From an uncultured Arachnia sp. (lineage in GTDB: Bacteria > Actinomycetota > Actinomycetes > Propionibacteriales > Propionibacteriaceae), in assembly GCA_947499145.1 (NCBI GenBank), contig CANMNB010000018.1:1-64000 (forward strand): a stretch of 64,000 nucleotides of DNA. Reading direction: 5' to 3'. The notes under the pieces are model-generated. The model did not search any database and was not told where the DNA came from. It worked only from the letters and a program-made list of their open reading frames with translations. Below are positions 32,317 to 33,354 of the stretch, one piece after another (the stretch's first letter is position 1; each line of letters begins with the position of its first letter). Made by a program: the position numbers and the translations under genes.

Positions 32317-32649
32317 ATGAGTACGTCGTCGATCCACCATTCCCACAACCTCCGAAACTCCTGGCTGGCCCTACTGGGACTACCTCTGGCGCTCCTCGCG
32401 GCGTTCTTCATTGGAAACGCGGTCATGTCCTCCGTCGGTGTACCCGAGGGAGAGCTGCTTCCGCTGCAGTGGATTGTGACGATGCTGCTCATCGTCGTTG
32501 TCCTACTCGCCATCCCCGTGGCCCTGGTGTGGCGCTTCAGCCGCCGAACGGCTGACGAGGGACACCGAGGCGCAATGTGGCCCTTCTGGATCGCGCTGGC
32601 ATTCGCGCTGCTGGCGGTCCTGATGAACACCGTTCCACTCTGGGTCTGA
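32317..32649 (+). CDS. Small membrane protein, three predicted helices
   Basis: A 110-aa protein from ATG 32317 with GAGGAG 6 nt upstream. Hydrophobic helices lie at about 14-36, 48-71 and 88-107, separated by a short basic cytosolic loop (RFSRRTADEGHR). The N-terminus has an HHSH cluster. No family recognised. It ends 16 bp before the SAM-type riboswitch. Confidence 0.75.
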   Translation: MSTSSIHHSHNLRNSWLALLGLPLALLAAFFIGNAVMSSVGVPEGELLPLQWIVTMLLIVVVLLAIPVALVWRFSRRTADEGHRGAMWPFWIALAFALLAVLMNTVPLWV

Positions 32650-32665
32650 GCCTGCTAGCGTCGTC

Positions 32666-32753
32666 GGCAGATCAAGAAGAGCGACGCCAAGCCCTCCGGC
32701 TCGTCGCCTGGCAACCGCGCCTCGTGCACGGTGCCACCGGAGGAAGATCTGCC
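32666..32753 (+). promoter_or_regulatory. SAM-I/IV-type S-adenosylmethionine riboswitch
   Basis: The fold is complete by hand. P1 is GGCAGATC (32666-32673) with GATCTGCC (32746-32753), 8 perfect pairs. P2 is GCGACG (32681-32686) with CGTCGC (32702-32707), and its upper part is AGCC with GGCT (32690-32693, 32698-32701). P3 is CCGCGC with GTGCACGG (32715-32731), one mismatch. The P2 loop CTCC (32694-32697) can pair with GGAG (32739-32742) as the family pseudoknot. Conserved joining sequences TGGCAACC and GGTGCC are present. No transcription terminator is obvious before the next ATG, so translational control is likely. Confidence 0.85.
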
Positions 32754-32800
32754 CGCGGCCGAAGGGGTCGTGGGAAGAACGAGCAGCGAGAGGTTCCACC

Positions 32801-33115
32801 ATGGCATCGACGTCCCCGCACCCATGCACCCAGTACACCCCGGGCCACCAGGTCCACTTCATCCAGGCCAAGCTCTCCAACGCCGGCGAGTGGCGACCCG
32901 TCGAACTGGTCTCACGACACGGCTTCGAAGCGCTCGTGGCTGTCGACGGTGGCCTGGAGACGTGGCGCTTCCACGCCGTCGACTCCACACGCCAGCTGCT
33001 CGACGAGTGGCAGCCGGGATCCGCGGGATTCTTGAGCGATCGGAACCTGCTGAGCGTCTCGGCCGGGTTCCTGTTCCCGTGCCGCCACCCCGGGTGGTGG
33101 AAGGACTGCGCCTGA
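32801..33115 (+). CDS. Riboswitch-controlled 104-aa protein of unknown function
   Basis: From ATG 32801 with GAGAGG about 8 nt upstream. The sequence is unfamiliar. It is soluble, with three cysteines (residues 9, 94, 103), and central segments VHFIQAKLSNAGEW, AVDGGLETWRFHAVDST and a C-terminal CRHPGWWKDC in which two cysteines frame a WW pair. It is the only gene between the SAM-type riboswitch (48 nt upstream) and the oppositely oriented tRNA-Ile, so it is the riboswitch's sole visible target. Confidence 0.7.
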   Translation: MASTSPHPCTQYTPGHQVHFIQAKLSNAGEWRPVELVSRHGFEALVAVDGGLETWRFHAVDSTRQLLDEWQPGSAGFLSDRNLLSVSAGFLFPCRHPGWWKDCA

Positions 33116-33138
33116 GACTCGCCGTCGCTCGGGGAAGG

Positions 33139-33167
33139 AAAAACCCGCCTCCGATGCTCGGGGCGGG
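33139..33167 (-). terminator. Rho-independent terminator of tRNA-Ile
   Basis: On the minus strand CCCGCC (33162-33167) pairs with GGCGGG (33144-33149), followed by TTTTT (33139-33143). It begins 7 nt after the tRNA 3' end. Confidence 0.8.
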
Positions 33168-33173
33168 ATCCGG

Positions 33174-33250
33174 TGGTGGGCCTAGCTGGACTTGAACCAG
33201 CGACCTCATCCTTATCAGGGATGCGCTCTAACCGCCTGAGCTATAGGCCC
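33174..33250 (-). tRNA. tRNA-Ile (anticodon GAT)
   Basis: 77 nt on the minus strand. The acceptor stem is GGGCCTA with TAGGCCC, followed by A and an encoded CCA. The D-arm reads AGCTCAGGCGGTTAGAGC, the anticodon loop is CTGATAA (GAT) and the T-arm contains GGTTCAAGTCC. It follows gyrA and the DUF3566 gene, a conserved actinobacterial order; the tRNA-Ala that often accompanies it is not in this window. Confidence 0.97.
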
Positions 33251-33354
33251 GTTACCGATGAGGAACTCTAGCGTACCGCCCCAGTGCCCGCCAAAACTGG
33301 GGCATGGGTTTCCCGCGACCTGACGGCCGTGGCGCGGATACCGTCGAAAGTGGG

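Follow-up and report, generated by a model that had tools for sequence, protein, structure and literature searches.

A divergent SAM-IV riboswitch probably controls translation of a small soluble protein from an undescribed family

In the window (the whole 64-kb stretch of DNA that was analyzed), a SAM-IV riboswitch lies immediately upstream of an open reading frame that encodes a 104-aa protein. The element is a genuine SAM-IV by its covariance match, and we consider it probable that it controls the translation of one small soluble protein from an undescribed family. When the window was compared with 4227 Rfam families by cmscan, SAM-IV (RF00634) was found at 32670-32785 on the plus strand with 72.6 bits (E 6.1e-11). 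The gathering cut-off of RF00634 is 38 bits, and the match is complete over model positions 1-116. Two RNAs reached the gathering level in the window: this SAM-IV (plus strand) and a tRNA-Ile at 33177-33250 (minus strand). Within the clan, RF00634 was retained by cmscan as the best model. The parts of the locus are as follows.

32670..32785, plus strand: complete SAM-IV aptamer (RF00634), by covariance match
32670..32673, plus strand: P1 5′ strand GATC, which pairs with 32746-32749
32678..32709, plus strand: P2a/P2b with internal loop; the first pair is A-U for the consensus G-C, and there is one A-C mismatch
32693..32699, plus strand: PK-1 5′ strand CCTCCGG, 7 bp with 32737-32743
32710..32716, plus strand: core GGCAACC, by sequence and covariance alignment
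32721..32725, plus strand: P3 loop with PK-2 5′ strand CTCGT, 5 bp with 32779-32783 (no shuffled control)
32730..32735, plus strand: core GGTGCC, by sequence and covariance alignment
32737..32743, plus strand: PK-1 3′ strand CCGGAGG, by complementarity
32746..32749, plus strand: P1 3′ strand GATC, by covariance alignment
32752..32774, plus strand: P5 hairpin, by covariance alignment; it appears in the free fold, too
32779..32783, plus strand: PK-2 3′ strand ACGAG, by complementarity
32788..32793, plus strand: probable ribosome-binding site GAGAGG, 4 nt past PK-2 and 7 nt before the ATG, inferred from the sequence
32801..33115, plus strand: 104-aa ORF of the unnamed C/GH/H small-protein family, from the ORF list and relatives
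33177-33250, minus strand: tRNA-Ile, by cmscan

A further ORF (110 aa, with hydrophobic stretches) is located at 32317-32649 on the plus strand and ends about 20 nt before the aptamer; it has no Pfam match above the cut-off.

The element at 32670-32785 possesses P1, P2a/P2b with an internal loop, P3, P5, PK-1 and PK-2, and its A-C mismatch sits in P2a. Because it has both the split P2 and PK-1, the element belongs to SAM-IV and not to SAM-I/IV, for which a P2 without internal loop, no PK-1 and a P4 would be expected; P5 is found in the place of P4. Judged by its sequence, the element is an ordinary SAM-IV riboswitch that is divergent in sequence. We take the GCAACC/GGTGC core residues to be SAM contacts by analogy with SAM-I structures, and SAM binding by the element is predicted from these conserved core nucleotides. 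The free thermodynamic fold, calculated by a method without pseudoknots, is unremarkable (z -0.75; 40 of 200 shuffles were as stable or better). Judging by its kinship groups, the window's genome probably belongs to the Propionibacteriaceae. In this genome (2.88 Mb, 26 contigs), the match at 32670-32785 is the single SAM-IV match, and SAM-I (RF00162) gave no match in that genome; the other SAM classes were searched for in the 64-kb window.

The original prediction had described an 88-nt element of SAM-I/IV type, 48 nt before the gene. A SAM riboswitch was indeed found, and the covariance-model check that had been proposed gave 72.6 bits, above the threshold of 38. The class label, however, has to be changed to SAM-IV (RF00634), given the internal loop and PK-1. 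The earlier boundaries were too short: the covariance match spans 116 nt and leaves 15 nt between the aptamer and the ATG at 32801. P1 (GATC/GATC) is present, and P2, with its one A-C mismatch, is not perfect. The conserved joints GGCAACC and GGTGCC are both in the element. The proposed pseudoknot of CTCC with GGAG is also present; it extends over 7 bp (CCTCCGG/CCGGAGG) rather than 4 bp, and a second pseudoknot, PK-2 (CTCGT/ACGAG), had been overlooked. The 104-aa ORF and the downstream tRNA on the opposite strand are as described.

The arrangement of these parts suggests how the element may act. Only 4 nt separate the end of PK-2 from the probable ribosome-binding site, which suggests translational control. 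A scan of 32560-33300 for sigma-70 promoters found none. A terminator scan of this stretch was also negative, and 15 nt is too short for an intrinsic terminator; translational control is therefore favored. SAM-dependent repression of the 104-aa ORF would follow by analogy with the riboswitch class: plentiful SAM would bind the aptamer and lock P1, PK-1 and PK-2, the locked aptamer would hinder ribosome loading on the ORF, and the 104-aa protein would be made once SAM runs low.

The 104-aa protein gave no match in Pfam, PHROGs or PADLOC, and in NCBIfam only GlpE appeared, with 13.8 bits against a cut-off of 102. PADLOC and PHROGs were applied to the 104-aa protein, to three of its relatives and to six proteins whose genes follow lower-scoring SAM-IVs; neither gave a match, and a defense or phage origin was set aside. 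Searches of genome_contigs, plasmids and phages with the 104-aa protein gave no match; the window's own genome may not be represented in these collections. Among the 198 genomes of the window's family, only G000 and G046 convincingly carry the gene, and the matches above E 0.001 in this set were all excluded. The G046 relative has 39% identity to the window protein (E 8.1e-16). When a two-row alignment was searched against genome_contigs, the only match was LUYM01000006.1, the G046 contig (‘Actinomycetales bacterium Actino_02’), and the same alignment found nothing in viral contigs.

The family was extended by profile searches, in which the profiles were built from relatives already found and the genome sets are not mutually independent. 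In 394 genomes of the class, 14 had a match at E <=0.01 and all were kept; the weakest of them (E up to 0.0093) were kept because the full motif is present. The search of 391 genomes of the order gave 11 matches at E <=0.001, of which three were dropped: G096 and G098 as weak, partial matches and G760 because of a stop. The family of G524 (186 genomes) was searched because G524 was already coupled to SAM-IV, and it gave six matches, of which G807 (stop) was dropped. G017 was also excluded, because the match covers 45 residues inside a 1245-codon frame (E 4.2e-4). Altogether, 21 relatives of the window protein were found, and the family comprises 22 members including it. Two proteins outside the 22, from G315 (HMM E 1.5e-4, small set) and G240 (E 0.044), are both led by SAM-IV and look like further distant members.

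The proposed search for the family and its genome neighborhoods thus yielded 22 members, eight of which have a SAM-IV above the gathering cut-off upstream: the window, G046, G466, G592, G524, G903, G792 and G945. By their group codes, these eight belong to three taxonomic families and eight genera. The distance from the aptamer end to the start codon is 13-58 nt in the eight loci (13 nt in G046). For the other 14 members, cmscan with an E limit of 3 (six sources) or 1 found no SAM-IV or other riboswitch near the gathering cut-off in stretches of at least about 1.5 kb on each side. Because no SAM-IV leader was found for these 14 of 22, the job of the protein is apparently not bound to SAM. When the window and G524 are left out, 6 of 20 members are coupled; if a rate of 6e-4 per gene is assumed, the naive chance of this is about 2e-15, a value that ignores relatedness and includes members from G524's family, which was searched since G524 was coupled. 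On the protein tree, the coupling corresponds to four changes and does not form one clade. With shuffled labels the mean was 6.8 changes, and 4 of 500 shuffles were as low; the deep branches of this tree are weak, and the strongly supported branches force only one change. The coupling is clustered on the tree, so that the eight cases are not independent, and a single origin with later losses would also be compatible with these sequences.

SAM-IV is present in 262 of the 394 genomes of the class. When 88 SAM-IV loci were screened with the family profile, three led to a clear family member and two to a doubtful one, which indicates that other genes are the targets of most SAM-IVs. A contig end cuts five loci of this set (L078, L114, L118, L123 and L132), and these were inspected separately, outside the locus table. 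The family-wide and class-wide SAM-IV searches used stricter filters and missed weak copies, for example that of G027, which was found later.

Comparison of the aptamers bears on whether the RNA has been under selection. The aptamers of the window and G046 are identical at 68 of their 80 leading nucleotides, against 24 of the 100 nt directly upstream. In all 13 aligned aptamers, GCAACC and GGTGC are invariant. At the first P2 pair, A-U is found in the window, G046, G585, G240, G373 and G278 and G-C in the others, a compensatory change, and PK-1 of G046 shows one compensatory difference from that of the window. When the eight coupled aptamers were screened for the best duplex, each yielded candidates for PK-1 and PK-2 with 4 bp or more, and their sequences differ between the aptamers; this screen had no shuffled control, several of the PK-2s have only 4 bp, that of G046 is doubtful, and PK-1 of G592 is probably misplaced. 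When ORF lists of seven coupled loci were read by eye, there was no consistent same-strand downstream partner; in G792, the gene is closely followed by a 438-aa frame on the same strand, which has no counterpart in the other coupled loci. Taken from comparative sequence data, the case for a regulatory link between SAM-IV and the 104-aa family is strong.

Some of the coupled genomes carry further SAM-IVs. In G000, G046, G466 and G592, the genome has no SAM-IV match other than the element before the family gene; there are five matches in G524, four each in G903 and G792, and seven in G945. The ten other SAM-IVs of G524, G903 and G792 precede genes for MetY-like proteins (three), MetX-like proteins (three), class V aminotransferases (three) and an NlpA/MetQ-like protein (one, in G524). 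Six of these targets were assigned by Pfam and four, those of G524, by eye. The Pfam matches are Cys_Met_Meta_PP at L166 and L163, Aminotran_5 at L161 and L167, and the general Abhydrolase_1 at L169 and L170; the MetX-like reading of the last two goes beyond this general match and is only presumed. In G945, four of the six other targets were examined: L162 is class V aminotransferase-like (by eye), L165 is a cysteine dioxygenase (Pfam), L168 is MetY-like (by eye) and L171 has no clear assignment. A SAM-IV leader on the family gene together with other SAM-IVs before methionine-type genes was therefore found in G524, G903 and G792; the window's genome, with one SAM-IV match only, falls outside this comparison. 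Given the recurrent pairing with SAM-IV and the methionine-type co-targets, the 104-aa gene is very likely an undescribed member of the SAM-IV regulon, and the family is probably part of the network for methionine/SAM control in these bacteria. The original prediction had expected a new component of methionine/SAM metabolism or transport. Membership in the regulon is plausible in view of the eight SAM-IV-led relatives in three families. In contrast, no membrane segment is evident by eye in the 104-aa protein, which speaks against a transporter, and such a role is not supported. In open-licence literature on SAM-IV (titles and abstract openings among the matches listed; the original 2008 report is outside this scope), no such small-protein target is named, and the open-licence search gave nothing on SAM-IV with DUF or orphan targets, on SAM-IV in ‘Propionibacteri-’ or on DUF3293.

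Other orphan genes also follow SAM-IVs. DUF3293 matches (E <=0.001) occur in 6 of the 39 genomes from the window's genus, 3 of them over the family cut-off, and all six DUF3293 genes have a divergent SAM-IV upstream (L027-L031, in G025, G020, G033, G029 and G031, and L174:1050-1163, in G027). The window's genome has no DUF3293 match and has the 104-aa gene. By hmmscan, L027-L031 scored 19.5-23.6 bits for DUF3293, under the Pfam cut-off of 25, and L023, L025, L127, L121 and L125, from other genera, scored above it. SAM-IV was also seen before DUF3293 in other families, at L127 (G585), L121 (G543) and L125 (G360), where DUF3293 was called by Pfam, and at L122 (G341) and L130 (G331), where it was called by eye. 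Furthermore, a divergent SAM-IV precedes an N-formylglutamate amidohydrolase gene (PF05013) at L022 (G215) and L032 (G217). At L124, L126 and L120, a divergent SAM-IV precedes a second family of small orphans (89-101 aa), in which the motif (Y/F)-V-E-(K/R)-x-Y-x-G-W-x-W-N was recognized by eye. The presence of SAM-IV before DUF3293 and N-formylglutamate amidohydrolase genes suggests that the SAM-IV regulon has a branch made up of orphans. We tentatively propose, as an idea that has a minor share of our confidence, that Actinobacteria hold a second, undescribed SAM-IV regulon of orphan proteins (the C/GH/H family, DUF3293 and a few others), which is often the single SAM-IV target of a genome and is read by a divergent aptamer subgroup.

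The divergence of this subgroup, with its A-U first P2 pair and CTCC-type PK-1, could also mean that a SAM-IV-type fold senses another ligand and that the small protein has no link to SAM. The lower-scoring divergent SAM-IVs do precede genes for DUF3293, N-formylglutamate amidohydrolase and small orphans, none of which is a known methionine gene. However, the core sequences GCAACC and GGTGC are unchanged in the 13 aligned aptamers and the change in P2 is compensatory. In addition, G524 has, besides its divergent copy, four SAM-IVs with higher scores that precede methionine-type genes (by eye), and we regard a changed ligand as improbable. It is more improbable still that SAM-IV cassettes have been shuffled among genes, so that the leader in the window hitchhikes or is decayed and has no regulatory meaning there. 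This would fit with the rarity of the gene (2 of 198 genomes of the family), with gene contexts that differ between genomes and with the fact that most relatives show no SAM-IV. Against it stand the coupling of 6 of 20 members, with its naive chance of about 2e-15 (relatedness ignored), and the P2 and PK-1 strands: the compensatory changes in P2 and the differing yet complementary strands of PK-1 point to selection on the RNA. A SAM-responsive leader that controls the 104-aa gene is our preferred reading.

What the protein does when it is made can be approached from its fold and its conserved residues, which lead to different proposals. The AlphaFold2 model (22 rows) predicts a helix and a small beta barrel with a mean pLDDT of 81.8; the N-terminal motif is poorly modeled (block means 47 and 58). 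Structural matches are weak: the best Z was 6.5 (8usb_F, rmsd 2.7, 68 aligned) and the best Foldseek E was 0.15. Comparison of both models gave weak matches only, all under the level that the tool treats as meaningful. A match of the family profile to PDB sequences (best E 0.055) was taken as chance. SfsA, EF-P and proteasomal ATPase subunits, which we take to have OB or SH3-like barrel domains, are among the weak structural matches. Together with the predicted barrel, they allow the possible but rather uncertain proposal that the protein is not a metal protein but a regulator or adaptor of sulfur metabolism, whose OB/SH3-like barrel would bind RNA, DNA or a partner. Every one of these matches, however, is under the meaningful level, and a nearly invariant Cys/His pattern would be unusual in a plain barrel adaptor. 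In the 22 members, Gly15-His16 is conserved in 22, Cys9 in 21 and His19 in 21. A His at the His58 position is found in all 14 members outside genus g103. The eight g103 members, which represent one genus, have no His there and possess an extra CMC motif.

The gene neighborhoods of g103 also concern metals. All eight g103 members are convergent to a Met/Cys-rich gene (L135, L136, L137, L150, L060, L062, L063 and L064). The wider context of the g103 loci differs among L135/L137, L136 and L150, as judged by eye. One of these Met/Cys-rich neighbors matched cytosolic copper storage proteins in the PDB (E 1.2e-8), three matched the Csp1 family in NCBIfam below the cut-off, and two copper-storage-like neighbors had no Pfam match. 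In nine other loci, including the four SAM-IV-led loci of G046, G466, G592 and G524, a motif scan found no copper storage-type ORF. The conserved Cys/Gly-His/His pattern and the copper-storage neighbors in one genus are a hint of metal binding. The 104-aa protein might be a small metal-binding accessory (Cys9, Gly15-His16, His19 and His58) that is used when sulfur or SAM is limiting, a doubtful proposal at present; such an accessory might, for example, handle metals for the metabolism of thiols or methionine.

Few clues to what an uncharacterized gene does are stronger than a riboswitch whose ligand is known. The SAM-IV leader ties an unnamed family, and by a side finding DUF3293, to the SAM response, and the role of these proteins when SAM is short becomes testable. 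If the second regulon exists, it would add a new arm, perhaps linked to metals, to the way these bacteria respond when SAM is short; alternatively, it might even reflect a variant aptamer with a changed ligand preference.

Finally, we compared the locus with known systems. With regard to Csp3 loci, all eight g103 relatives are convergent to a Met/Cys-rich, Csp3-like gene; in contrast, the 104-aa protein itself is not a Csp, and the motif scan of the nine other loci found no such ORF. The element in the window has its ligand-binding core in common with SAM-I/IV (RF01725). SAM-I/IV is without split P2 and PK-1 and has P4 (PMC6890682; PMC2864571), whereas the element in the window has the split P2 and PK-1. 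In the description of the cryo-EM structure, SAM-IV has P1, P2a/P2b with internal loop, P3, P5, PK-1 and PK-2 (PMC6890682). The element is a full-length match to SAM-IV (RF00634) with all of these parts. It differs in its score, 72.6 bits when many copies exceed 100 bits, in its first P2 pair, which is A-U and not G-C, and in its target, which is no known methionine enzyme. In Mycobacterium avium, SAM-IV precedes the gene for O-acetylhomoserine sulfhydrylase (PMC3774663). The same riboswitch class occupies the gene leader in both cases; there it stands before a known methionine enzyme, whereas in the window it stands before an orphan 104-aa protein.
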